A stretch of 64,000 nucleotides of DNA from an uncultured Bacteroidota bacterium. GTDB lineage: Bacteria; Bacteroidota; Bacteroidia; B-17B0; Aurantibacillaceae. The stretch covers positions 434,001 through 498,000 of the forward strand of contig CALMVZ010000011.1 in the NCBI GenBank assembly GCA_937873155.1, in the 5' to 3' direction. A program made the translations under genes and the position numbers. Shown here in pieces: positions 2,662-14,304 of the stretch (position 1 is its first letter; each line of letters opens with the position of its first letter). Under the pieces are notes generated by a model that was not told the DNA's origin, did not search any database, and saw only the letters and a program-made list of their open reading frames with translations.

Positions 2662-3111
2662 ATGCTGCAAAAAAAGACCAAATATGCCATAAAAGCCTTA
2701 CTGGCATTGGCAAAACACTATGGCGAGCATCGGCCGTTAAAGATCTCCGAGATCTCGAATAACGAAAAGATCCCGCGAAAATTTCTGGAAGCCATTATGG
2801 TCGACCTGAAAAAGATCGGTTATGTTAGCAGCACAATGGGCGCTCGCGGCGGATATGTTTTAATTAAACATCCGGAGGAAGTAATGCTAAGTAATATAAT
2901 AAGATCAACCGGCGGGCCAATAGCATTATTGCCTTGCGTGAGTTTGAATTTCTATGAATCCTGTAAAGAATGTGTTGGCGAAGACGTCTGCGGATTACGC
3001 GATGTTATATTAGAAGTCCGGGAAGCAAGTATAAAGATTCTCTCCAAAACCAGTTTAAGTGATATTTTAAGGCGTGAAAATAGACTTTTTAAGAAGTTTG
3101 GGTTACAGTAG
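2662..3111 (+). CDS. Rrf2-family transcriptional regulator of sulfur assimilation (predicted)
   Basis: A 149-residue protein with the full Rrf2 winged-helix layout: LQKKTKYAIKALLALA at the N terminus, the recognition-helix region around IPRKFLEAIM (38-47) and the wing motif GARGGY (60-65). The C-terminal part carries four cysteines in the pattern C92-x8-C101-x2-C104-x5-C110. IscR and NsrR use three cysteines in this area to bind an Fe-S cluster, so a cluster or thiol sensor is plausible. The family includes CymR, the cysteine-metabolism regulator of Firmicutes. The gene stands just upstream of the whole sulfate reduction operon, and matching palindromes precede both, so it probably represses itself and that operon. 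The start follows the operator and a -7-like element. Confidence 0.85.
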   Translation: MLQKKTKYAIKALLALAKHYGEHRPLKISEISNNEKIPRKFLEAIMVDLKKIGYVSSTMGARGGYVLIKHPEEVMLSNIIRSTGGPIALLPCVSLNFYESCKECVGEDVCGLRDVILEVREASIKILSKTSLSDILRRENRLFKKFGLQ

Positions 3112-3135: not shown

Positions 3136-3154
3136 TCATACTAAATAAGTATGA
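3136..3154. promoter_or_regulatory. Second probable Rrf2-type operator, ahead of the sulfur operon
   Basis: Inverted repeat TCATACT-AAATA-AGTATGA (7-bp perfect arms, 5-bp centre) located 25 bp after the Rrf2 stop codon and about 70 bp before the leader ORF. Aligned with the palindrome at 2603-2617 it shares 12 of 13 core bases, TACTAAAT(T/A)AGTA. Its place at the head of the sulfite reductase transcript suggests the regulator controls the operon. I could not fix the exact -7 element of this promoter. Confidence 0.55.
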
Positions 3155-3221
3155 TATACTAAAAATATTTCAAATTTTTCTTGCGGGAACGAAAATCTAT
3201 TCATTAATTTGTCCCACGAAA

Positions 3222-3332
3222 ATGAAAAACAATTTAAATAAATGTCTCTTTTTACTTCACGTTATGATGATGTGGATGTACTGCTGCAAGTATGATCATT
3301 TGCTGAAGGGACAACTTATACGCGTAAAATAA
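3222..3332 (+). CDS. Met/Cys-rich leader peptide ORF (36 codons, putative attenuation leader)
   Basis: A short ATG-to-TAA frame between the second operator and the sulfite reductase gene. Codons 15-22 (3264-3287) read MMMWMYCC: four Met and two Cys codons in eight, plus an earlier Cys at codon 8. The residues are products of the very pathway encoded downstream. The ORF is followed after 28 nt by a rho-independent-type hairpin (3361-3390). This is the classic layout of a transcription-attenuation leader: the ribosome would stall at Met/Cys codons when charged tRNAs are scarce. No Shine-Dalgarno is visible, which is normal for Bacteroidota. There is no homology evidence, and a chance ORF of this size is possible, but composition, position and the following terminator agree. 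Confidence 0.5.
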   Translation: MKNNLNKCLFLLHVMMMWMYCCKYDHLLKGQLIRVK

Positions 3333-3360
3333 AAAATACCGACTGACTATAAGAACGAAG

Positions 3361-3390
3361 CCCTTCCGCTAACAACGAGAAGGGTTTTTT
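3361..3390 (+). terminator. Terminator/attenuator hairpin before sulfite reductase gene
   Basis: Stem CCCTTC (3361-3366) with GAAGGG (3379-3384), extended by a CG/CG pair after a one-base bulge, followed by six T (3385-3390). It stands 74 nt before the sulfite reductase start codon, not at the end of a normal gene. The same CCCTTC strand can instead pair with GAAGGG at 3305-3310 inside the leader ORF, extended by GC/GC after one mismatch, or with GGAAGGG at 3433-3439. It can therefore be switched between alternative folds. Confidence 0.65.
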
Positions 3391-3400
3391 ATTACCCATT

Positions 3401-3439
3401 CTCTTCTGAAATCAGAAGAGTGCTTCCCAAAGGGAAGGG
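3401..3439 (+). promoter_or_regulatory. Two tandem stem-loops in the sulfur operon leader
   Basis: Stem-loop one pairs CTCTTCTGA (3401-3409) with TCAGAAGAG (3412-3420). Stem-loop two pairs CTTCCC (3423-3428) with GGGAAG (3432-3437). Neither has a T run, so they are not ordinary terminators. The second overlaps GGAAGGG (3433-3439), which is complementary to the 5' arm of the terminator plus one base (3361-3367). They may set the translation start of the next gene, which begins 24 bp later, or act as antiterminator parts. The pairing is seen; the role is inferred. Confidence 0.4.
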
Positions 3440-3463
3440 AATTAACAAGAAAGGAAGAAAAAA

Positions 3464-5572
3464 ATGCAAAGCTTTAGAACAGAAATAGAAAATACAGGCA
3501 ACAACAAGAAAGCACTTGTTGAGAAAGATATTATTGACCTGGAAAAAAAGATCCGCCAGTTCCGCGAAGGAAAAATCCATGAAGAGAAATTCCGCAGCCT
3601 GCGTTTAGCACGTGGAGTGTATGGTCAACGTCAGCAGGGTGTTCAGATGATACGTATCAAATTGCCGTTTGGAAAGGTTTCGGCAAAACAGCTACTACGT
3701 ATCGCTGACATCAGCGACGAATATTCTAATGGGAATTTGCACTTAACAACAAGACAGGATGTTCAAATTCACCACGTGAGCTTGGAAAGAACTCCGGAAT
3801 TGTGGGCAAAATTAGAACAAGATGATATTACATTACGTGAAGCTTGCGGAAATACAGTTCGTAACGTAACCGCATCTGCTGAAGCTGGAATTGATCCGAA
3901 TGAATTGTTCGATGTTTCTCCGTATGCAAAAGCAGTATTCGAATATTTTTTACGCAAACCATTCGGACAGGAATTAGGACGTAAAATAAAAATTGCTTTT
4001 TCGAATACTGATAAAGATACAGCAGTTACTTATATCCATGATTTCGGATTCATTCCTAAAATTGAAAATGGGAAGAGGGGCTTTAAAGTTTTAGTTGGTG
4101 GCGGATTGGGTGCGCAGCCTTTTTTAGCACAAACTGCTTTTGAATTTTTGCCGGAAGAAAAACTGATTCCCTTCTTAGAAGCAAGCATTCGGGTATTCGA
4201 TCGTTATGGAGAAAGAGCAAGTCGTCACAAAGCACGTATCAAATATCTGATCAATAAGATTGGTATTGACGAATTTTTGAAATTGATAAAAGAGGAGGAG
4301 AAAGCAATTTTAGTAAAAGTATTCCCCATTGATAGTTCCAGAACAGAAACCGAAATACAATTCCGTTCACAATTACCGGACGAAAATCCTGCAATAGATA
4401 AAGACGCTTTTTTTGTCTGGAATAAGACAAATGTATTCAAGCAAAAACAAGCGGGCTTTTTTGGAGTTTATATAAAGATTCAATTAGGTAACATTTCAAC
4501 AACTAAAGTAAGGGAGTTCGCAAGAGTGGCGAAATTATATTCTGATGCTTCAGATATTCGTATCACGATCAATCAGGGATTCTTATTGCGTAATGTAACG
4601 GCGGAAGAATTACCTTTTTTATTCAGCGAATTGTCACAATTAGGATTAGCAACTCCGGGATTTGATTCTGTTGGCGATATTACCGCTTGTCCCGGAACCG
4701 ATACTTGTAATTTGGCGATCTCTAACAGCACAAACGTTTCTGTCGAATTGGAGAAAGTGATTTATGCTGAATATCCTGAATTAATTTACAATCACGATAT
4801 CAAAATAAAAATTAGCGGTTGTATGAATGCATGCGGTCAACATAGTTTGGCACAGATTGGATTTCATGGCAGTTCATTTAAAATAGGAACGAATGTTGTT
4901 CCAGCACTGCAGGTTCTATTAGGCGGCGGAACTTTAGGAAATGGAAAAGGAAGAATTTCTGACAAGGTGATTAAAGTGGCGAGCAAACGCGGACCGGATG
5001 TTCTAAGAACTTTATTTGATGATTTTGAGAAGAACGCTGTTGAAGGAGAATATTTTAACTCTTATTATGATAATCAGGGAAAGGATTATTTCTATCAACT
5101 ATTAAAACCATTGGCAGATAATTCTTCTTTGAAAGAAACTGACTTTATTGATTGGGGTTCTGAAGAAAAATTCCAGACTGCGATTGGTGTTGGAGAATGT
5201 GCCGGAGTTGTTATTGATCTTGTTCAAACCTTATTTTTTGAAGCAGAAGAAAAACTTGAATTAAGTGCAGAAGCTTTTGGTAACGAACAATTTGGTGACA
5301 GTATTTATTACACTTACGCCGCTTTCATAAACGGCGCAAAGGCTTTGTTATTGGATAAAGAAATTCACGTGAACACACATCATGGTGTTATCGCCGATTT
5401 TGACAAACACTTTATTGAAACAAAAGAACTGAAATTAGAATCAAGCTTTAAAGACCTTGTTTTACAAATAAACCAGAACGAACCTTCAAAACAATTCGCA
5501 GAATTATATTTTATAGAAGCAAAAGAATTTTTACAAGCGGTAAAACAAATAAGACAAACCAACCTGGTATGA
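3464..5572 (+). CDS. sir: Ferredoxin-type sulfite/nitrite reductase with C-terminal HEPN domain
   Basis: A 702-residue protein. Residues 40-590 hold two ferredoxin-like and catalytic repeats of the siroheme sulfite/nitrite reductase family, including LTTRQDVQIHH, which matches the substrate-binding Arg-containing segment, and GGLGAQPF. The cluster-siroheme ligands are visible as C409-x5-C415 and C453-x3-C457. The context (APS reductase, CysDN, siroheme genes, MetZ) points to sulfite reduced to sulfide rather than nitrite to ammonia. Residues about 590-700 are helical and resemble a HEPN domain, a fusion seen in Bacteroidota homologues. Electrons probably come from ferredoxin recharged by the reductase encoded at 8769-9779. 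It is the first large gene of the operon, preceded by the attenuator-like leader. Confidence 0.85.
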   Translation: MQSFRTEIENTGNNKKALVEKDIIDLEKKIRQFREGKIHEEKFRSLRLARGVYGQRQQGVQMIRIKLPFGKVSAKQLLRIADISDEYSNGNLHLTTRQDVQIHHVSLERTPELWAKLEQDDITLREACGNTVRNVTASAEAGIDPNELFDVSPYAKAVFEYFLRKPFGQELGRKIKIAFSNTDKDTAVTYIHDFGFIPKIENGKRGFKVLVGGGLGAQPFLAQTAFEFLPEEKLIPFLEASIRVFDRYGERASRHKARIKYLINKIGIDEFLKLIKEEEKAILVKVFPIDSSRTETEIQFRSQLPDENPAIDKDAFFVWNKTNVFKQKQAGFFGVYIKIQLGNISTTKVREFARVAKLYSDASDIRITINQGFLLRNVTAEELPFLFSELSQLGLATPGFDSVGDITACPGTDTCNLAISNSTNVSVELEKVIYAEYPELIYNHDIKIKISGCMNACGQHSLAQIGFHGSSFKIGTNVVPALQVLLGGGTLGNGKGRISDKVIKVASKRGPDVLRTLFDDFEKNAVEGEYFNSYYDNQGKDYFYQLLKPLADNSSLKETDFIDWGSEEKFQTAIGVGECAGVVIDLVQTLFFEAEEKLELSAEAFGNEQFGDSIYYTYAAFINGAKALLLDKEIHVNTHHGVIADFDKHFIETKELKLESSFKDLVLQINQNEPSKQFAELYFIEAKEFLQAVKQIRQTNLV

Positions 5573-5790
5573 AAAAGTATACTTATTTAAAACATTGTTG
5601 TTGTTGTATGATAATGCTATAGCTGTATTACGGTTTCGGTTAATATAGCTACAGCACTCAAACCCGGAATGTAAACAGTTATAAATAAATCACCAGCCCC
5701 TCTTTTTCATGTAAGGAGGGAGCGCGGAGAAGAGTGAGGCAGAGCAAAGCACGCTTCGCTCCTTTAGTAAACAAATAAAAAACAAGAAAA
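5573..5790. other. 218-bp spacer inside the sulfur operon, with stem-loops
   Basis: There is no gene here. A hairpin pairs TAGCTGTATTA (5620-5630) with TAATATAGCTA (5641-5651) over 11 bp including one G-U, without a T run. Farther on, CCCTC (5698-5702) can pair with GAGGG (5716-5720), and GGAGCG (5719-5724) with CGCTCC (5757-5762). The second block looks like a remnant of a dispersed palindromic intergenic element. These structures could act as mRNA stabilisers or processing sites that adjust sulfite reductase output relative to downstream genes. Confidence 0.4.
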
Positions 5791-6564
5791 ATGAGCAAAG
5801 AAACCATATATCCAAAATTAACAGTAGTAGGAGCCGGTCCAGGTGATCCCGAATTAATAACCGTAAAAGCTATCAATGCTTTAAGCGAAGCAGATGTAAT
5901 CCTTTATGATGCTTTAGTAAACAAAGAACTTTTAAAATATGCCCCGGTTGATGCATTAAAGATCTACGTTGGAAAACGTAAGAACAAACACGAATACACA
6001 CAAGAGCAGATCAATAATCTGATAGTTGATTTTGCTTTCACCCATGGACGAGTGGTTCGCTTAAAAGGGGGAGATCCATTTGTGTTTGGAAGAGGCAGCG
6101 AAGAAATTCAACACGCCGAAGCTTTCAATATTGAGACAGCAGTTGTTCCCGGAATCTCAAGTTCAATTGGCGTTCCCGGTTTAAACGGAATTCCGGTAAC
6201 TCACCGGGGCATCAGCGAAAGTTTTTGGGTAATTACAGGAACAACACAGAACGGAAGAATCTCTAAGGATATTGCGAAAGCCGCGAAATCGAACGCGACG
6301 GTTGTGATCTTAATGGGCTTATCTAAATTAAAAGAGATCACTGAGATCTATAAAAAGGAAGGTAAAAGCGAAACATTAGTAGGTATCATTCAAAACGGAA
6401 CTTTAGCTACTGAAAATGTTGCTTTAGGAACCATTGATACTATTGTTAATGAGGTTGCGGAGCAAAATATAAAATCTCCTGCTATAATTGTTATTGGAGA
6501 AGTTGTGAAATTCCACAAATACTATCCGTCTCTTGCTACGAACTGGAATTATTTATTGAATTAA
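5791..6564 (+). CDS. cobA: Uroporphyrinogen-III C-methyltransferase (SUMT)
   Basis: A 257-residue protein of the tetrapyrrole methylase family. Signature segments are VGAGPGDPELITVKA near the N terminus (SAM-binding loop), RLKGGDPFVFGRG in the middle, and GIPVTHRG. It methylates uroporphyrinogen III twice, giving precorrin-2, the first step to siroheme. The length fits a stand-alone SUMT rather than the trifunctional CysG of enterobacteria. The oxidation/chelation half is found separately, fused to a transporter at 7296-8765. Position straight after sulfite reductase, whose cofactor is siroheme, supports this role rather than cobalamin synthesis. Confidence 0.93.
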   Translation: MSKETIYPKLTVVGAGPGDPELITVKAINALSEADVILYDALVNKELLKYAPVDALKIYVGKRKNKHEYTQEQINNLIVDFAFTHGRVVRLKGGDPFVFGRGSEEIQHAEAFNIETAVVPGISSSIGVPGLNGIPVTHRGISESFWVITGTTQNGRISKDIAKAAKSNATVVILMGLSKLKEITEIYKKEGKSETLVGIIQNGTLATENVALGTIDTIVNEVAEQNIKSPAIIVIGEVVKFHKYYPSLATNWNYLLN

Positions 6565-6582
6565 GCGCCTAAGAAAGTAGAA

Positions 6583-7299
6583 ATGAAAACAAAATTATTT
6601 TTCGGCTTAGTTCTTTTTGTTTTAGCAGTAAGATCGCAGGAGGCGGCCCCTCGTTATCGTAGTATTAATTCTGTTTGGCTTGGCTATTTAAATACAACAA
6701 CCATTGACGAAAAGTGGAATGTGAATACCGATATTCAGTATCGCACAAAGGAATGGCTTGAAAAACCGAGCCAGTTCTTAGTAAGAAGCGGCCTCGGATA
6801 TAAATTAAATGATAAGGTCAGAATTACTTTAGGCGCTGCACACTTCAGATTTTATTTAACGAGTATCACAACAAATGGAGAATGGAGACCATGGCAAGAG
6901 TTATTGATAAATGACGCGGTTGGAAAGACAAAGATCGCACATCGTTTCCGGGCTGAACAGCGGTTCAACCAAAAAGTAGTTGCTAATAAGCCAACTAATG
7001 ATCATAGTTTTAACTGGCGTTTTCGTTACAGGTTAGAAGCAACTCGTCATTTGATTAAGTATGGAAGCAAGGGAATTTCGCTAATTATTGGGAACGAGAT
7101 CCTTATTAATGCAGGGAACAGTATCCGTTATAATTATTTTGACCAGGATCGTTTGTATGCAGGATTTAATTTCGACCAGAACAAGCATCTTACTTATCAA
7201 ATAGAGTTCATGCACATTTGGCAGCAGCAATCTAACGGGATTACATTAGATAAAGTTTCAATAGTACGATTTAATATTTTTCACAGGATAAGTTTATGA
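6583..7299 (+). CDS. DUF2490-like outer-membrane protein in the sulfur operon
   Basis: A 238-residue protein with a hydrophobic N terminus ending at an SQEA-like site, so probably exported. The rest alternates polar and aromatic residues in short strands and ends in aromatic/hydrophobic positions (FHRISL), as in small outer-membrane beta-barrels. The pattern resembles DUF2490 proteins of Bacteroidota. It starts 18 bp after cobA, and its stop overlaps the next start (ATGA), so it is translationally coupled to the siroheme/transporter fusion. A role in outer-membrane passage of sulfate or another sulfur source is possible but rests on context alone. Confidence 0.65.
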   Translation: MKTKLFFGLVLFVLAVRSQEAAPRYRSINSVWLGYLNTTTIDEKWNVNTDIQYRTKEWLEKPSQFLVRSGLGYKLNDKVRITLGAAHFRFYLTSITTNGEWRPWQELLINDAVGKTKIAHRFRAEQRFNQKVVANKPTNDHSFNWRFRYRLEATRHLIKYGSKGISLIIGNEILINAGNSIRYNYFDQDRLYAGFNFDQNKHLTYQIEFMHIWQQQSNGITLDKVSIVRFNIFHRISL

Positions 7300-8765
7300 G
7301 CGTAGCAACAGAAAATAAGTTATTCCCTGTCTTTTTAAAACTCGAAAATTTTCGGGTTTTGATTGTAGGCGGCGGAAAGGGTGGTTTAGAAAAAGTTTCA
7401 GCTATCTTAAACAATAGCCCAAAAACGGAGATAACTCTTGTGGCAAGTCAGGTTAGTGATGAGATCAAGTTGCTGGCGCAAGCTAATCCGAATTTAAAAA
7501 TTCGTGAACGTTCTTTTGAAGAAACCGATCTGAATGAAATTGATTTCGTGATCTCAGCTGTAAACAATAAAGAAACAAGTCTTGAGATCAAACATTTGGC
7601 ACAGGAAAGAAACTTATTGACCAATGTAGCGGACACACCTGAACAATGTGATTTTTATTTGGGGTCAATTGTTCAAAAGGGCGATGTTAAGATCGCTATT
7701 TCCACCAATGGAAAATCACCGACTTTAGCAAAACGATTGCGGGAAACATTAGATGAATCTATTCCAAACGAAATAAACGAAGCGGTTCAGAATTTAGTCG
7801 GCATTAGAAAGTATCTGGAAGGAGATTTTACTGAAAAAGTAAAGCAATTGAATGAGATAACGGCCGTATTAACTAAGGAAGGCATCACGCAAAAACCAAA
7901 GATCAGCAAACAACGTGTATGGATCTATAGTTTAACAGCGCCCGTTTTAATTTTGGTCGGCTATTTATTGTGTAATTTTTTACCCCCCGAAGTGTTGAGC
8001 GGATACGCAGGGAGATTAACGCAAAGTGTTGATTCGAGTATTTTAATTTTTATTCTCGCAGGATTCACGGCGCAAATGATAGATGGAGCATTAGGAATGG
8101 CCTATGGTGTAACAGCAACTACTTTTCTGTTGTCAGCCGGAGTTCCTCCTGCCGCTTCAAGCGCGAGCGTTCATGCATCCGAAGTTTTTACAAGCGGAGT
8201 TTCAGGATTAATGCATTTGAAATTCGGGAACGTGAATACGAAATTATTCCGTACCCTTTTAATTCCGGGAGTACTCGGTGCAATTCTCGGAGCATATATT
8301 TTATCTTCTTTCCAGGAGTATAATTATATCATCAAACCCTTAGTTTCAATTTACACACTAGTATTAGGATTGATAATTATTTTCAAGGCATTGAAGAAAG
8401 ATAAGGTTCGCGAAAAGATAAAACGTATTTTTCCTTTGGCGGCTGTTGGTGGCTTTTTAGATTCAATAGGTGGTGGAGGCTGGGGGCCAATTGTTTCTTC
8501 AACTTTGATAGCCGGAGGAAGAAACGCCCGTTACACGATTGGCTCTGTAAATCTCGCGGAGTTCTTTGTTTCTCTCGCAAGTTCAATAACATTCTTCACA
8601 TTAATTGGTTTAACCCATTGGGCAATTATTGCAGGATTGATCATTGGAGGAATCATTGCCGCACCGATCGCCGCATATTTAGCAAACCGTATCCCAACAA
8701 AGGCCATTATGATCTTAGTAGGAGTTGTAGTAATTATAGTTAGTCTTAAACGTTTATTTTTCTAG
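7296..8765 (+). CDS. Fusion: siroheme synthase (precorrin-2 dehydrogenase) + TSUP/TauE-type transporter
   Basis: A 489-residue protein of two parts. Residues about 8-195 match the CysG/Met8 N-terminal unit: NAD-binding loop VLIVGGGKGGLEK, NVADTPEQCDFYLGS, and the segment AISTNGKSPTLAKRLRE. This part oxidises precorrin-2 and inserts iron, or at least dehydrogenates it. Residues about 205-489 are a polytopic membrane domain with GFTAQMIDGALGMAYG and GGFLDSIGGGGWGPIV, the paired motifs of the TSUP (TauE/SafE) family of sulfite, sulfonate and sulfate carriers. The operon encodes no other transporter, so this half may bring in sulfate or export excess sulfite. The gene overlaps the DUF2490 gene by 4 bp. 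Confidence 0.88.
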   Translation: MSVATENKLFPVFLKLENFRVLIVGGGKGGLEKVSAILNNSPKTEITLVASQVSDEIKLLAQANPNLKIRERSFEETDLNEIDFVISAVNNKETSLEIKHLAQERNLLTNVADTPEQCDFYLGSIVQKGDVKIAISTNGKSPTLAKRLRETLDESIPNEINEAVQNLVGIRKYLEGDFTEKVKQLNEITAVLTKEGITQKPKISKQRVWIYSLTAPVLILVGYLLCNFLPPEVLSGYAGRLTQSVDSSILIFILAGFTAQMIDGALGMAYGVTATTFLLSAGVPPAASSASVHASEVFTSGVSGLMHLKFGNVNTKLFRTLLIPGVLGAILGAYILSSFQEYNYIIKPLVSIYTLVLGLIIIFKALKKDKVREKIKRIFPLAAVGGFLDSIGGGGWGPIVSSTLIAGGRNARYTIGSVNLAEFFVSLASSITFFTLIGLTHWAIIAGLIIGGIIAAPIAAYLANRIPTKAIMILVGVVVIIVSLKRLFF

Positions 8766-8768
8766 AAC

Positions 8769-9779
8769 ATGATCACAACAGATATCGCCATAATTGGCGC
8801 AGGACCAGTAGCATTATTTTCAATCTTTGAAGCAGGGCTATTAAAGCTGCGTTGCCATCTGGTTGATTATTTACCACAGGCGGGAGGACAACTTTCGGAG
8901 ATCTATCCAAAAAAACCAATCTATGACATTCCTGGTTTTCCGAGTGTTTTGGCTCAGGAATTAGTTGATAATTTAGTAAAACAAGCAGAACCATTTAAAC
9001 CAACTTATACTTTAGGTGAGAGAATTGAATCACTGGTTAAGATTGCCGAGCGTGATTTTATTTTGACCACTAACATGGGAACAAAAATTTCTGCACAAGT
9101 TGTTGTGATAGCAGGGGGTCTTGGTTGCTTTGAACCCCGTAAGCCGGAAGTAAAAGACCTTGAAAAATTCGAGAACGGGAAGGGCGTTTCTTATATGGTA
9201 TTAGATCCTGAATCCTATCGCGACAAAAAAATTGTTATCGCCGGCGGAGGAGATAGCGCTTTGGACTGGACAATATTTTTAACGAATGTGGCAAGGGAAG
9301 TGACATTAGTTCACAGAAGCGAATCATTCCGTGGTGCCCCGGATAGTGTAAATAAAGTGTTGAAGTTGGCGGATGAAGGAAAAATGAAATTGTTGCTAAA
9401 TACTAATCTTACCAATGTAAAAGGGGACTCGGTTTTGAAAACGGTCGATGTAGTCAATATAAAAAGCGGCGCCGGAGAAACGATAGAGGCAGATAACCTG
9501 ATTCCACTGTTTGGTTTGAGCCCAAAGTTAGGGCCGATCGAAAATTGGGGGTTGAACATTGACAAAAATGCTATTGAAGTGAATGCGGAAGATTACAGCA
9601 CTAACATCCCGGGCGTTTACGCAATTGGGGATATTAATACCTATAAGAATAAACTGAAATTGATCTTATGTGGTTTTCATGAGGCGGCTTTGATGAGCCA
9701 TAGTGCCTATAAATACATTAATCCGGGAGTAAAATACACTATGAAATATACCACCGTTAACGGTGTGAATTCATTCTAA
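8769..9779 (+). CDS. Ferredoxin--NADP(+) reductase, thioredoxin-reductase-like (YumC type)
   Basis: A 336-residue flavoprotein. Residues 7-20 carry the FAD dinucleotide fold (IIGAGPVALFSIFEAG), followed by QAGGQLSEIYPKKPIYDIPG, typical of the YumC-type reductases. The second Rossmann loop IAGGGDSALDW lies near residue 155 and binds NADPH. The C-terminal YAIGDI motif contacts FAD. No CxxC redox pair is present, which separates it from thioredoxin reductase. In this operon it would recharge the ferredoxin that feeds sulfite reductase; no ferredoxin gene is adjacent. It starts 3 bp after the previous stop. Confidence 0.9.
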   Translation: MITTDIAIIGAGPVALFSIFEAGLLKLRCHLVDYLPQAGGQLSEIYPKKPIYDIPGFPSVLAQELVDNLVKQAEPFKPTYTLGERIESLVKIAERDFILTTNMGTKISAQVVVIAGGLGCFEPRKPEVKDLEKFENGKGVSYMVLDPESYRDKKIVIAGGGDSALDWTIFLTNVAREVTLVHRSESFRGAPDSVNKVLKLADEGKMKLLLNTNLTNVKGDSVLKTVDVVNIKSGAGETIEADNLIPLFGLSPKLGPIENWGLNIDKNAIEVNAEDYSTNIPGVYAIGDINTYKNKLKLILCGFHEAALMSHSAYKYINPGVKYTMKYTTVNGVNSF

Positions 9780-9797
9780 AATAGGTATCTTTATTCC

Positions 9798-10211
9798 ATG
9801 AAAATTACAATTAAAAGAACCGATGACGATTTTGCCATGGAAGCAAAAAATGAGGATGGGAACATCATCGCCATGGATGGCCCTCCGAATTTAGGAGGAC
9901 ATAATTTGGGGTTCAGGCCAACTCAATTGTTGTTAGCTGCCGTTGGTGGCTGCAGCGCTATTGATGTCGTGATGATCCTGAAAAAGCAAAAACAAAAAAT
10001 AGACTCATTTGAAATTGAAGTTGACGGCGAAAAGGAAAAAGTGGAAGAATATTCTTTATTCAGAAATATTACAATTCACTTCAAATTAAAGGGAGAAATT
10101 GAATTAGAAAAAGCACAGCGCGCTGTGCAGTTGTCAATAGAAAAATATTGTTCAGTATCAAAAACATTGGAACCGACGGCAAAAATTAGTTATAAAGTGA
10201 GCGTAAATTAG
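9798..10211 (+). CDS. OsmC/YhfA-family protein
   Basis: A 137-residue protein of OsmC type, with GPPNLGGHNLGFRPTQLLLA then GCSAIDVVMILKKQKQ, where the cysteine of GGCSA fits the first conserved OsmC thiol; a second lies in KYCSVSKTL near the C terminus. OsmC/Ohr proteins reduce organic hydroperoxides through the two cysteines, while the YhfA branch is less well understood. It sits 18 bp after the reductase gene and 1 bp before MetZ, so it is firmly in the sulfur operon. A link to sulfur chemistry or persulfide/peroxide detoxification is inferred from context. Confidence 0.85.
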   Translation: MKITIKRTDDDFAMEAKNEDGNIIAMDGPPNLGGHNLGFRPTQLLLAAVGGCSAIDVVMILKKQKQKIDSFEIEVDGEKEKVEEYSLFRNITIHFKLKGEIELEKAQRAVQLSIEKYCSVSKTLEPTAKISYKVSVN

Positions 10212-10212
10212 T

Positions 10213-11379
10213 ATGAAAGACAAGAAATTTGAAACCAGGGCTATTCGCGCACAATTAGAACGGAGCGGGAACAATGAGCACTCGGCGCCTTTGTATTTAA
10301 CTTCCAGTTTTGTTTTTGATACAGCGGAAGATATGCGCGCTGCTTTCAATGATGAAAGTGATGCTTTTATTTATTCACGCTATACCAATCCGAACAATAA
10401 TGAATTCGTCAATAAAGTTTGCTTATTAGAAGAAGCAGAAGCCGGAGTTGCTTTGTCTTCAGGCATGGCAGCTATTTACACAACATTCATGGCATTATTG
10501 AAATCGGGGGATCATATTGTTTCTTGCTCTTCAGTTTTCGGGGCAACACATGCCATTTTCACAAAGTATTTTCCTAAACTAAATATTTCCTATTCGTATT
10601 TTAATATTAAAGATCCGAATAGTATCGAGAAATTAATAAAACCTGAAACACGTTTTATTTATTTAGAAACGCCAACGAACCCGGCAATTGAATTGATAGA
10701 TCTTGAATTTGTAGCGGGTGTTGCGAAAAAACACAGTAAACTTTTGATCGTCGATAATTGTTTTGCTACTCCGTATTTACAACAACCAATAAAATATGGC
10801 GCAGACCTTGTAATTCATTCCGCAACAAAATACATGGATGGTCAAGGGCGCGTATTAGGAGGAGTTGTAGTTGGGAAGAAGGAACTGATCAATGAAATTT
10901 ATTTATTCGGGAGAATAACAGGACCGTCTATGAGCCCGTTCAATGCCTGGGTATTAAGTAAAAGTTTAGAGACGCTTGCATTAAGAATGGATCGTCATTG
11001 TGAAAATGCTTTATTTATTGCCGACGCTTTAGAAAAAAATTCAGCTTTAGAGAATGTTTCGTATCCATTCCTGAAATCACATCCGCATCACGCTATTGCT
11101 AAAAAACAAATGAAAGCGGGTGGTGGAATTATTACCGTTACAGTTAAAGGCGGTTTAGAAGGAGCGAAGAAATTCATGGACAAATTGCAAGTGATAAAGA
11201 TCTCTCCAAACCTGGGAGATTCAAGAACAATTGCCACACATCCGGCTTCGTCCACACATTGCAAGTTAAGCGAGGAGGAGCGATTGTCTGTTGGGATTTC
11301 TCAAGGGTTGATCCGGATCTCCGTCGGATTAGAGAATAAAGAAGATATATTAAAAGATATAGAACAAGCTCTTAAATAG
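10213..11379 (+). CDS. metZ: O-succinyl/O-acetylhomoserine sulfhydrylase (trans-sulfuration PLP enzyme)
   Basis: A 388-residue enzyme of the Cys/Met-metabolism PLP family. Visible marks are YSRYTNPNNNEF (phosphate-binding Tyr/Arg), SSGMAAIYTTFMALL, the PLP-ring Asp in LLIVDNCFATPYLQ, and the Schiff-base lysine in HSATKYMDGQGRVLGG. The DGQGRVLGG ending is typical of the MetZ branch, which uses sulfide directly to make homocysteine, rather than cystathionine synthase or lyase. That fits an operon whose product is sulfide. Choice between succinyl and acetyl ester cannot be made from sequence alone. Its stop shares one base with the GTG start of cysH. Confidence 0.85.
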   Translation: MKDKKFETRAIRAQLERSGNNEHSAPLYLTSSFVFDTAEDMRAAFNDESDAFIYSRYTNPNNNEFVNKVCLLEEAEAGVALSSGMAAIYTTFMALLKSGDHIVSCSSVFGATHAIFTKYFPKLNISYSYFNIKDPNSIEKLIKPETRFIYLETPTNPAIELIDLEFVAGVAKKHSKLLIVDNCFATPYLQQPIKYGADLVIHSATKYMDGQGRVLGGVVVGKKELINEIYLFGRITGPSMSPFNAWVLSKSLETLALRMDRHCENALFIADALEKNSALENVSYPFLKSHPHHAIAKKQMKAGGGIITVTVKGGLEGAKKFMDKLQVIKISPNLGDSRTIATHPASSTHCKLSEEERLSVGISQGLIRISVGLENKEDILKDIEQALK

Positions 11380-12077
11380 TGAGTAAAGTAAACGACATAG
11401 AAGAATTAATTGCCGGGAGATCTGCAGAAGAAATTCTGGAAGTAATTTCCGGACTGTCATCTGAGAAAATTGTTTTCTCAACCAGTCTCAGTTATGAAGA
11501 CCAGGTGATCACGCACATGATCTTTTCTAAGAAATTGAATATTGAAGTTTTTACGTTGGATACGGGACGTTTATTCTCAGAAACTTATTCTGTGTTTAAT
11601 AGCACACGCGGTAAGTACAAAAGAGAAATAAAAACGTATTACCCAAGAACAGAAGCTGTAGAAAATATGGTTTCTACAAAGGGCCCAAATAGTTTTTATG
11701 AATCAGTTGAGAACAGAAAGGAATGTTGTTATATCAGGAAAGTTGAACCATTAAAGCGAGCTCTTACAAAGAAAACAATTTGGATCACGGGAATTCGCTC
11801 TGAGCAGTCAGCTAATAGAAGTGACATGAGACAGGTGGAGTGGGATGAAACACATCAATTAATAAAAGTTCATCCATTATTGAATTGGACTTTTGAAGAG
11901 ACAAAAGCATATATCAACAAACATAACATTCCTTACAATTCTTTACACGATAAAGGTTTTGTAAGCATTGGTTGTCAGCCCTGCACAAGAGCAATTAAAA
12001 CAGGAGAAGATTTTCGGGCCGGGCGATGGTGGTGGGAAGACAGTACAAAAAAAGAATGCGGTTTACATACAAATTAA
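11379..12077 (+). CDS. cysH: Assimilatory APS reductase (CysH family, 4Fe-4S type)
   Basis: A 232-residue PAPS/APS reductase. It has the phosphate loop FSTSLSYEDQ and the segment TGIRSEQSANR. Two cysteine pairs are present, C116-C117 (ECCYIRK) and C199-x2-C202 (GCQPCTR), which ligate a 4Fe-4S cluster in APS reductases and are absent from the PAPS-specific enterobacterial enzyme. No APS kinase (cysC) is encoded nearby, consistent with direct APS use. The GTG start at 11379 overlaps the metZ stop by one base. The C-terminal ECGLH end carries the catalytic cysteine that attacks APS, with reducing power from thioredoxin. Confidence 0.93.
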   Translation: MSKVNDIEELIAGRSAEEILEVISGLSSEKIVFSTSLSYEDQVITHMIFSKKLNIEVFTLDTGRLFSETYSVFNSTRGKYKREIKTYYPRTEAVENMVSTKGPNSFYESVENRKECCYIRKVEPLKRALTKKTIWITGIRSEQSANRSDMRQVEWDETHQLIKVHPLLNWTFEETKAYINKHNIPYNSLHDKGFVSIGCQPCTRAIKTGEDFRAGRWWWEDSTKKECGLHTN

Positions 12078-12078
12078 A

Positions 12079-12990
12079 ATGAGCAAGTACTATTTAGATT
12101 ATTTAGAACAATTAGAATCGGAAGCCATTCACATCATGCGTGAGGTGGCCGGACAATTCGAAAAACCAGCGTTGTTATTCAGCGGCGGGAAAGATTCTAT
12201 TACTTTGGTGAGATTGGCAGAGAAAGCATTTCGTCCGGGGAAATTCCCTTTCCCTTTAGTTCATATCGATACAGGACACAATTTCAGAGAAGCATTGGAT
12301 TACCGTGACAATATGGTAAAGCAAATGGGCGAGAAATTAATTGTCCGCTACGTTGAAGATACGATCAAAGAAAAAAAACTGGCAGAGCCAAAAGGAAAAT
12401 TCGCAAGTAGGAATGCTCTGCAAACTTATACTTTATTGGATACGATCGAAGAATTCGGATTTGACGCTTGTATCGGCGGCGCCCGACGTGATGAAGAAAA
12501 AGCAAGAGCGAAAGAGAGAATTTTTTCTGTAAGAGATGAATTTGGCTCATGGGATCCAAAGTTGCAGCGCCCGGAATTGTGGAATATTTATAACGGTAAA
12601 ATTCACAAAGGAGAGAATGTCAGATGTTTCCCTATAAGTAACTGGACGGAATTAGATGTTTGGAATTATATCAAGAAAGAAAATATTCCGTTACCAAGCA
12701 TTTATTTCGCTCACGAACGGGAATGCGTTGTGACGAATCAAAATCAACTAATAGCAGTTTCTGATTTCATTCAAATTGAACCGAGCGATAAAATTGTAAA
12801 AAAGAAAGTACGTTATAGAACAGTTGGTGATATGACCTGTACAGCCGCAGTAGAAAGCGACGCTTCAACAATTGATGATATTGTAAAGGAGATCGCCATT
12901 TCGCGCTTAAGCGAAAGAGGAGAAACCAGAATCGATGACCAGGTTTCAGAAGCAGCGATGGAAGATAGAAAAAAGGGAGGATATTTTTAA
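12079..12990 (+). CDS. cysD: Sulfate adenylyltransferase subunit 2
   Basis: A 303-residue protein, the usual length for CysD. The ATP pyrophosphatase loop FSGGKDSITLVRLA and the family signature CIGGARRDEEKARAKER are clear, followed by SWDPKLQRPELWN. With CysN it forms APS from ATP and sulfate. The frame is open upstream to 11968, but that part overlaps cysH and reads as nonsense. ATG at 12079, one base after the cysH stop, gives the family N terminus (YYLDYLEQLESEAIHIMREV). A palindromic repeat separates it from cysN. Confidence 0.96.
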   Translation: MSKYYLDYLEQLESEAIHIMREVAGQFEKPALLFSGGKDSITLVRLAEKAFRPGKFPFPLVHIDTGHNFREALDYRDNMVKQMGEKLIVRYVEDTIKEKKLAEPKGKFASRNALQTYTLLDTIEEFGFDACIGGARRDEEKARAKERIFSVRDEFGSWDPKLQRPELWNIYNGKIHKGENVRCFPISNWTELDVWNYIKKENIPLPSIYFAHERECVVTNQNQLIAVSDFIQIEPSDKIVKKKVRYRTVGDMTCTAAVESDASTIDDIVKEIAISRLSERGETRIDDQVSEAAMEDRKKGGYF

Positions 12991-12998
12991 CTAACATT

Positions 12999-13053
12999 CA
13001 TGCTGAACTTGTTTCAGTATCTTAAAAATTCCGAAACAAGTTCGGAATAACAC
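12999..13053. repeat. REP-like palindromic intergenic element, copy 1 (between cysD and cysN)
   Basis: GAACTTGTTTC (13005-13015) and GAAACAAGTTC (13033-13043) form an 11-bp perfect inverted repeat. Each arm is itself a small palindrome, CTGAACTTGTTTCAG and CCGAAACAAGTTCGG. A second copy with the same design lies at 45175-45233. Elements of this form are dispersed in Bacteroidota intergenic DNA. Here it lies inside an operon, where a strong RNA hairpin could stabilise or partly separate the cysD and cysN messages. Confidence 0.75.
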
Positions 13054-13062
13054 GAAGGACAA

Positions 13063-14304
13063 ATGGACATATTAAGATTTATAACAGCGGGAAGCGTAGA
13101 TGATGGAAAGAGTACTTTGATCGGAAGATTACTGTACGACAGCAAATCTATTTTAGCCGATCAGTTAGCAGCTATTGAAAAACAAAGTAAGAATAAAGAC
13201 AAAGGTGAGATAGATCTGGCAATTCTTACAGATGGATTGCGTGCAGAACGCGAACAAGGCATTACAATAGATGTTGCTTACAAATATTTCTCTACTCCAA
13301 AACGTAAATTCATTATTGCAGATGCGCCAGGACATATTCAATACACCCGGAACATGGTTACAGGCGCGAGTAATTCGGACCTGGTTGTAATTTTAATTGA
13401 TGCTCGCAAGGGGGTAATTGAACAAACAAAGCGCCACTCGATAATAGCTTCGTTACTAGCCCTACCTCATGTTGTAGTTGCAATTAACAAAATGGATCTC
13501 GTGAATTATGATGAGAAAGTTTACAACCAAATTGTTACGGATTATAAAAACATTCAGGAACAACTGGGGATTAAAAATCCGAGGTTCATTCCTATCAGCG
13601 CCCTGAGCGGAGAAAATATTGTTGATCCTTCAGCGAACATGAAATGGTATAAAGGGGGAACTTTAATTACTATTCTGGAGAATGTTGAATTAAAGAACGA
13701 TATCAACTTAACAGACGCGCGTTTCCCTGTTCAATACGTTATACGTCCCCAAACTGATGACCTTCACGATTACCGTGGGTACGCCGGAAAATTAACGAGC
13801 GGTATTTTAAAAGTAGGCGATAAAATTTCTGTGCTTCCGGCAGGACACAAAAGTACGATCAAATTAATTGAGAAGGATGGTAAACCTGTTGATGAGGCAT
13901 TCGCACCGCAAAGTGTGATTGTTCATTTAGCTGACGAGATCGATATTAGCCGCGGCGATGTGATTGTAAGAGAAGGCAACGAGCCGACCGTTACACAAGA
14001 TATTGAAGTACTATTATGCTGGATGGACGCAAAGGCAATGGAAGTTGGCAGCAAATATTTGATCCAGCACAATAACAAACAAATTCGTTGTGCCGTGAAA
14101 GGGATCGAGTATAAATTGGATGTTAATACGCTCGAAAAACAAACTTCAGTTGCTGCTGCGCAATTAAACGATGTTTGTAAAGTAACTCTCAAAACGGCAA
14201 GGCCCATTGCCGTCGACAGTTATGCTAAACTCCGCACAAACGGAGGAGCTGTTTTAATTGATGAGACAAGTTACGTTACCGTTGGCGCCTGTATCATCCA
14301 GTAA
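13063..14304 (+). CDS. cysN: Sulfate adenylyltransferase subunit 1 (GTPase)
   Basis: A 413-residue translation-factor-type GTPase: G1 GSVDDGKSTLIGRLLYD (8-24), G2 region REQGITIDVAY, G3 DAPGHIQYTRNM, G4 NKMDL, then the beta-barrel domains 2 and 3. It couples GTP hydrolysis to APS synthesis by CysD. It is shorter than E. coli CysN and lacks a fused APS kinase domain, in line with an APS-using CysH. It is the last gene of the sulfur operon and is followed by a hairpin at 14319-14348. Confidence 0.96.
   Translation: MDILRFITAGSVDDGKSTLIGRLLYDSKSILADQLAAIEKQSKNKDKGEIDLAILTDGLRAEREQGITIDVAYKYFSTPKRKFIIADAPGHIQYTRNMVTGASNSDLVVILIDARKGVIEQTKRHSIIASLLALPHVVVAINKMDLVNYDEKVYNQIVTDYKNIQEQLGIKNPRFIPISALSGENIVDPSANMKWYKGGTLITILENVELKNDINLTDARFPVQYVIRPQTDDLHDYRGYAGKLTSGILKVGDKISVLPAGHKSTIKLIEKDGKPVDEAFAPQSVIVHLADEIDISRGDVIVREGNEPTVTQDIEVLLCWMDAKAMEVGSKYLIQHNNKQIRCAVKGIEYKLDVNTLEKQTSVAAAQLNDVCKVTLKTARPIAVDSYAKLRTNGGAVLIDETSYVTVGACIIQ

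Follow-up and report, generated by a model that had tools for sequence, protein, structure and literature searches.

A Predicted Cysteine- and Methionine-Codon Attenuator at the Head of Sulfite Reductase Operons in Bacteroidota

The Sulfur Gene Cluster and Its Leader Region

The sulfur genes considered in this work lie in a 64,000-nt stretch of DNA from an uncultured bacterium of the Bacteroidota (contig CALMVZ010000011.1, positions 434,001 to 498,000), which is called the window throughout; their features are collected in table 1. The first gene past the leader region encodes a siroheme sulfite/nitrite reductase family protein (SiR), which also shows a weak C-terminal match to the Pfam HEPN domain (residues 588-666, 24.3 bits with respect to a cut-off of 22), a domain that to our knowledge is unusual for a sulfite reductase. 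The genes that follow would encode a cobA-like tetrapyrrole methylase, a DUF2490 protein, a fusion of siroheme synthase with TauE, a PLP enzyme of Cys/Met metabolism and CysH-, CysD- and CysN-like proteins; the ORFs at 8769-9779 and 9798-10211 lie outside these family assignments. No riboswitch or T-box family of Rfam 15 matches the window at gathering score, and none matches at E<=1 between 3100 and 5900.

The gene preceding the leader encodes an Rrf2-family regulator, for which the NCBIfam models of CymR and IscR remain below their cut-offs. An inverted repeat, CTACTAAATTAGTAG, is situated before this gene at 2603-2617 and resembles CATACTAAATAAGTATG, which stands before the leader promoter; judging from their sequence, the two repeats are candidates for autoregulation and for control of the operon by the Rrf2 protein.

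Table 1. Position of the leader elements and sulfur genes in the window
Feature	Position	Strand	Basis and remarks
Rrf2-family transcription regulator gene, directly upstream	2662..3111	+	Pfam PF02082, E=4e-32; NCBIfam rrf2_super above cut-off
Inverted repeat CATACTAAATAAGTATG, candidate Rrf2 operator	3137..3153	.	Sequence; role inferred
Predicted promoter: TTG (3181-3183), 20 nt, TTAATTTG (3204-3211)	3181..3211	+	Sequence; start site inferred
Leader ORF, 36 codons	3222..3332	+	Starts 10 nt past the -7 box; L002/L031, L003 and L004 share its frame and Met/Cys core
Met/Cys control codons MMMWMYCC (ATG ATG ATG TGG ATG TAC TGC TGC)	3264..3287	+	Sequence; Met enriched close to the Cys codons across 28 leaders
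Antiterminator arm GCTGAAGGG	3302..3310	+	Complements 3361-3369
Intrinsic terminator: CCCTTC (3361-3366), 12-nt loop, GAAGGG (3379-3384), T6 (3385-3390)	3361..3390	+	Sequence, terminator scan
First gene past the attenuator: SiR, of the siroheme sulfite/nitrite reductase family	3464..5572	+	Pfam PF01077, PF03460
Second poly-Cys ORF MKKYTYLKHCCCCMIML	5569..5622	+	Start overlaps the SiR stop (ATGA, 5569-5572)
Predicted H-type pseudoknot: S1 5620-5630/5641-5651, S2 5633-5639/5664-5670	5620..5670	+	Fold versus shuffles; S2 counted from sequence
Rest of the sulfur gene cluster	5791..14304	+	Pfam domains; gene names inferred

The leader ORF translates as MKNNLNKCLFLLHVMMMWMYCCKYDHLLKGQLIRVK followed by its stop codon. 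This ORF with its MMMWMYCC run, as well as the terminator having CCCTTC as its 5' arm, had been reported in an earlier sequence-only reading of the locus, and both are present exactly as described there. In the putative promoter, TTAATTTG resembles the -7 box TAnnTTTG of flavobacteria, organisms in which, according to the available part of the same source, Shine-Dalgarno sequences are absent (PMC9723704). By eye, a similar promoter precedes several leaders of related bacteria; none could be seen upstream of the leaders of L157 and L167, which lie directly 3' of the preceding gene.

Recurrence of the Leader Among Related Bacteria

Searched against 87 genomes of the family, the leader peptide reaches E 0.0011 or better in no genomes but that of the window and three of its genus (L002/L031, L003 and L004). 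These three relatives keep the frame, and their cores read MMMWMCCC, MMMWMCCC and MTMWMRCC. Weaker matches, up to E 10, came from 32 more of these genomes, and the architecture was not seen in the two examined, L005 and L006. Peptide homology was consequently discarded as a route to relatives, since the sequence is lost outside the genus.

The distribution becomes very different when the leader is sought from the side of SiR, which was found in 36 of 100 genomes. The best 30 places, including that of the window and one cut by a contig end (L166), were scanned, and in 23 of them a terminator upstream of SiR is immediately preceded by a short ORF with at least two Cys codons. The class as a whole was then sampled evenly, covering 88 of 94 genomes with SiR and an upstream stretch of 1.5 kb for 30 loci and of up to 2.5 kb for 58, shorter at contig ends as in L208 and L225. 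A short ORF with CC or CxC followed by a terminator appeared in 44 of the 88 loci, spread over 16 of 25 families; the scan detected no leader in the other 44, and families without any include f54 (0/12), f12 (0/7), f15 (0/5) and f68 (0/4). As to the six remaining genomes, which were covered by the scan of 30 loci, the leader is present in G117, G035 and G011, and none was found within 1.5 kb in G005, G121 and G097.

Among 80 loci from named organisms, the CC/CxC ORF with its terminator lies within 1.1 kb upstream of SiR in 13, and the scan returned no leader for the other 67, among which are all eight titled Flavobacterium. Two leaders beyond these 13, in L037 and L062, were recognized by inspection or in the first scan. 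The scan is known to miss weak terminators: the leader of L037 is visible by eye, and L205, having the same match position, scores none. Such ORFs precede 13 of the 24 terminators situated within 1.1 kb upstream of SiR versus 9 of the 298 found elsewhere in the 80 loci (Fisher p 2e-11); of the 13, four come from Pedobacter and are nearly identical, so that they do not count as independent. Named carriers include Pedobacter (L054, L055, L058, L064), Mucilaginibacter (L078) and Rhodocytophaga (L062); in Pedobacter gandavensis LMG 31462 (L064) and Mucilaginibacter myungsuensis (L078), which are culturable, SiR comes immediately after the leader.

Beyond the genus, the leader peptides have little in common except Cys and Met. 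Counted over 28 leaders, 68 of the 346 residues near the Cys cluster are Met, versus 13 of 364 elsewhere (Fisher 5.5e-12); no corresponding figure is given for Cys, since the leaders had been selected by it. The arrangement is also found ahead of first genes other than SiR, namely an apparent aldo/keto reductase (L033, L036) or an apparent peroxiredoxin (L034), all named by eye and all standing before SiR. The attenuator thus follows the head of the operon and not a given gene. By inspection, 12 of the 88 class-wide loci carry two tandem Met/Cys leader-terminator units (L175, L176, L179, L182, L183, L186, L187, L194, L208, L216, L243, L249), a count that leaves out L191, L206 and L251, in which the second match falls inside an apparent gene. 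The sequence-only reading would have been refuted by a lack of conservation of the frame or of the Met/Cys codons in relatives; leaders and terminators recur throughout the class, and the refutation did not materialize.

Elsewhere in the genome of the window, the DNA pattern ATG-TGY-TGY revealed no other leader of the head type, a negative of little weight because this pattern misses even the window's own leader. The sequence TGYTGYTGYTGY has 75 matches in this genome versus 19 for its reversed control, and among the first 30 of the 75 there are short ORFs with CCCC at L120, at L125 and at one place covered by L129-L136.

Covariation of the Antiterminator with the Terminator

In the window, GCTGAAGGG (3302-3310) can pair with CCCTTCCGC (3361-3369) at eight of nine positions, with one mismatch. 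Capture of the terminator's 5' arm by a segment just past the Met/Cys codons had been proposed before, and the pairing stands; its extent, formerly given as 3305-3310, is best read as the longer segment. A second partner proposed at the same time, GGAAGGG at 3433-3439, is indeed in the sequence and was rejected as an antiterminator, since it is not conserved: in the three relatives of the genus (L002/L031, L003, L004), no counterpart was seen in the segment that separates the terminator from SiR.

Across the leaders, an arm 3' of the Cys codons complements the 5' arm and loop of the terminator and changes along with it. For example, the arm and its target are GCGGAAG/CTTCCGC in L039, TCAACGG/CCGTTGA in L038, TGCGAA/TTCGCA in L032, AACGGA/TCCGTT in L033 and TTCGGA/TCCGAA in L034. 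In a set of 28 leaders, obtained from 31 by dropping near-duplicates (L144, L145, L148) and with terminator arms and loops chosen by hand from the scans, this pairing exceeds that of dinucleotide shuffles with a Fisher combined p of 2e-18, 15 leaders being individually below 0.05 and 13 not. None of 20,000 permutations that swapped terminators among leaders reached the pairing of the leaders with their own. An automatic repeat on 52 units from 38 loci outside the first set, which omitted six loci already used (L169, L183, L184, L195, L197, L200) and retained three apparent chance ORFs inside genes (L191 at -475, L206 at -444, L251 at -537), gave a combined p of 3e-33, with 34 units below 0.05, 18 not significant and, again, 0 of 20,000 permutations. 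Since relatedness makes the loci of a family dependent on one another, these combined p-values overstate the evidence. Covariation of the leader arm with the terminator, which had been suggested as a check of the attenuator, is nonetheless evident in both sets.

Position of the Ribosome and Folding of the Leader

The front edge of a ribosome lies about 12 nt beyond its A site. The gap between the first Cys cluster and the start of the arm has a median of 15 nt in the set of 52 units, which fits this distance. When a ribosome was placed on the last Cys codon of 15 modelled leaders, at least five antiterminator pairs were expected in every one. With the ribosome four codons further on, less than one pair was left in 8 of the 15; pairing was partial in L037, L033, L004, L036 and the window, and the arm was still strongly paired in L101 (10.8 pairs) and L039 (8.1).

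How can the arm be masked by a ribosome that has reached the stop codon? The sequence-only reading had doubted that masking would be complete, and the doubt was justified for the window's genus, in which the arm ends 14-18 nt ahead of the stop, and for some other lineages, given that 10 of the 52 arms in the second set end at least 12 nt before it, those of the inner f21 units among them. A ribosome at the stop leaves the arm masked (less than one pair) in 8 of the 15 modelled leaders, partly open in four, the window among them (3.3 of 8.3 pairs), and open in three (L031, L003, L039). Arms lying far before the stop would be exposed once the ribosome is released, so that masking there must be transient.

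In the absence of a ribosome, and before the 3' arm of the terminator is made, at least five antiterminator pairs are expected in 12 of the 15 leaders. No protector hairpin is therefore evident, and leaders left untranslated should be read through in the absence of some other factor. In a trp-type attenuator, a protector hairpin would form in untranslated RNA and let the terminator win; among the modelled leaders, the terminator does stand at 0.99 or more in 13 of 15 after synthesis of the complete leader. Modelled at equilibrium, the full-length leader prefers the terminator (0.96 or more in 13 of 15) even while a ribosome occupies the last Cys codon, so the model needs a kinetic race. Equilibrium folding was for this reason set aside as a test of attenuation, being uninformative.

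Proposed Mechanism and Alternative Explanations

Attenuators of the trp, his and leu type combine a short leader ORF containing codons for the pathway's product, an intrinsic terminator and a competing antiterminator. The corresponding criteria are met here: the leader ORF is short and carries codons for the pathway product, an intrinsic terminator separates it from the first gene, and the antiterminator excludes the terminator and is conserved by covariation. As a conserved architecture of RNA and ORF, the attenuator is real; the ORF, its codons, the terminator, their recurrence and the covariation of the antiterminator have all been computed. We consider it very probable that this architecture works as a ribosome-mediated transcription attenuator sensing Cys, and probably also Met. 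This interpretation, already advanced in the sequence-only reading, draws its support from the class-wide recurrence and from the covarying antiterminator; termination itself is no part of the evidence and is inferred. The same holds for the start of transcription, for stalling and the kinetic race, for the direction of the response and for how much Cys and Met each contribute.

Transcription would begin a few nucleotides upstream of the leader ATG. In cells well supplied with Cys-tRNA, and probably with Met-tRNA, the ribosome would pass the control codons and cover 3302-3310 while the polymerase makes 3361-3384; the terminator could then form and the transcript would end near 3390. A shortage of Cys (or Met) is expected to halt the ribosome on MMMWMYCC with its front edge leaving 3302-3310 free, and this segment would capture CCCTTCCGC before the terminator closes, so that the polymerase would enter the sulfite reductase operon.

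The same codons could matter through the peptide that they specify. A nascent chain rich in Cys and Met might bind a metal or be oxidised and thereby stall the ribosome, so that the switch would respond to copper, zinc or redox conditions and not to the supply of amino acids; both residues serve as metal and thiol ligands, metal-sensing leader ORFs do exist, and Trp is found in the cores (11 of 346 core residues versus 4 of 364 others). No spacing or motif is fixed, however, as CCC, MCCMMC, CMCG, CCCMCCCC and MMCCWMMQRCC all occur, and the downstream genes belong, by their domains, to the synthesis of Cys and Met; we regard such a sensor as improbable. Even less credit can be given to the idea that a small Cys/Met-rich protein with a function of its own is made from the ORF, the terminator only tuning the output of the operon. 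Preservation of the frame and core within the genus would suit it, yet the ORF is unconserved outside the Met/Cys run, with the good peptide matches confined to 4 of 87 genomes, it has no NCBIfam match up to E 0.1, and the covariation of arm and terminator would be left unexplained.

Control of sulfur by the Rrf2 regulator alone, with leader and terminator serving as a passive constitutive dampener, has equally slight standing in our judgement. An Rrf2 gene and inverted repeats do flank the operon, and in L165 and L171 the apparent end of an Rrf2 gene, recognized by eye, lies upstream of SiR without any clear leader-terminator unit; a passive terminator, however, needs neither a Met/Cys ORF nor a covarying antiterminator.

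Relationships with Known Leaders

The codon-sensing attenuator proposed here shares with the trp, his and leu type the leader ORF with product codons, the intrinsic terminator and the competing antiterminator. It differs in having Met besides Cys codons, in an arm that often pairs with the inner 5' arm and loop of the terminator, in the lack of an evident protector hairpin, in the tandem units present in 12 of 88 loci and in a promoter that nearly abuts the start codon. A comparative study of attenuation by Lopatovskaya (2010) may contain related predictions.

Among described leaders, the uORFC-8-2 motif before cysS in Rhodobacterales is similar in having a uORF with two tandem Cys codons followed by an intrinsic terminator; it belongs to another phylum and gene, and the available part of its description mentions no Met run (PMC8632094). 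Poly-Cys leader ORFs also stand upstream of the cys operons of mycobacteria and other Actinobacteria, with Cys runs before operons of Cys biosynthesis as in the window. According to the portions of that literature at hand, the mycobacterial ones are leaderless, and the window's leader is nearly so by prediction; they lack conserved terminator hairpins, unlike the window (PMC1262725).

Within the same phylum, leader-peptide-like ORFs have been noted in general terms in the 5' regions of Flavobacterium psychrophilum, upstream of amino-acid operons (PMC9723704), and in those of Bacteroides thetaiotaomicron (PMC7366714). These are likewise short 5' ORFs, and the accessible text of the two papers, supplements excluded, mentions no Cys/Met leader of sulfur genes. 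The main text of a survey of premature terminators of 2010, as far as it was available, does not mention Bacteroides or Bacteroidetes (PMC2965389). No description of a Cys/Met leader peptide of sulfate assimilation in Bacteroidota was present among the matches listed from the open-licence PMC literature, in agreement with the earlier statement that no such leader was known in this phylum.

The mechanism is classical, and what is new as far as we know lies in the sensor codons, the distribution and the tandem arrangement. Given that the same arrangement is present in many related bacteria, it looks like a common, apparently undescribed thermostat for sulfur, and it may provide a concrete and widely distributed candidate for the control of sulfate assimilation in a large part of the Bacteroidota. 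It also points to ribosome-mediated attenuation on transcripts that have hardly any sequence before the leader ATG, in bacteria of a phylum in which Shine-Dalgarno sequences are absent or little used.

Poly-Cys ORFs Inside the Operon and Before metX

The most novel part of the system is a relative of the attenuator that involves a pseudoknot. A CC-containing ORF starting within 17 nt of the SiR stop was found in 13 of the 30 loci, the window included, and L153 has a version of it with one Cys; it was not seen in others, for example L146-L150. From the stop codon of this poly-Cys ORF onward, an H-type pseudoknot is predicted that beats shuffled sequences in 14 of 16 regions, several of which are from close relatives: 13 regions reach p=0.01, the floor with 100 shuffles, and the window p=0.04. 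In L157 and L038, no pseudoknot better than shuffles was obtained. The stems of L159 are wholly different (TTTCCTCC/GGAGGAAA with TTATAATGAG/CTCATTATAA). In the window, the first stem begins at the stop codon of the ORF, and in 12 of the 14 pseudoknot regions it starts 0-5 nt from the first base of this codon; the best-scoring stems of L162 and L166 start 9 and 13 nt past the stop. From this position it follows that a ribosome finishing the poly-Cys ORF must unfold the first stem, which one stalled on Cys need not do. We favour the inference that the unit exerts a Cys-dependent control of expression past SiR, without an effect on cobA being established. A different arrangement is seen in L038 at about 7822-7900, where a hairpin resembling a terminator, TCCTTACACG...CGTGTAAGGATTTTTT, takes the place of the pseudoknot after the post-SiR poly-Cys ORF.

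A further poly-Cys ORF is present in the same genome on contig C27 (G000, minus strand, L173). Upstream of metX, a SAM riboswitch (RF00162, 67 bits) is followed on its 3' side by an ORF ending in MCCMCCCCCMC and then by an ORF of 71 amino acids, for which there is no Pfam or NCBIfam match. The same order of SAM riboswitch, poly-Cys ORF and small ORF recurs in L033 (1354-1614) and L035 (2146-2406), with metX following in L173 and L033; the region possibly exerts a two-signal control by SAM and Cys.

Could these elements form a single scheme? Tentatively, and with slightly less than even confidence, we propose that the sulfur operons of this lineage carry layered Cys/Met-codon sensors, consisting of one or two attenuators at the head, a coupled poly-Cys ORF and pseudoknot after SiR and a SAM riboswitch with poly-Cys ORF before metX. 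If this is true, the unit of ORF and pseudoknot would represent a novel type of ribosome-gated switch, placed inside the operon and without a terminator. The natural single, tandem and pseudoknot versions would lend themselves to direct tests of how the position of the ribosome steers the folding of RNA.

Two minor observations concern the SiR proteins themselves. In L034 (6001-8484), the SiR frame stops at 8097 and the protein match continues to 8484, as if the 3' end had been duplicated or interrupted. The sulfite reductase of L110, a metagenome-assembled genome titled Klebsiella pneumoniae, is 57% identical to that of the window, which is within the range of Bacteroidota; the label is thus probably wrong.
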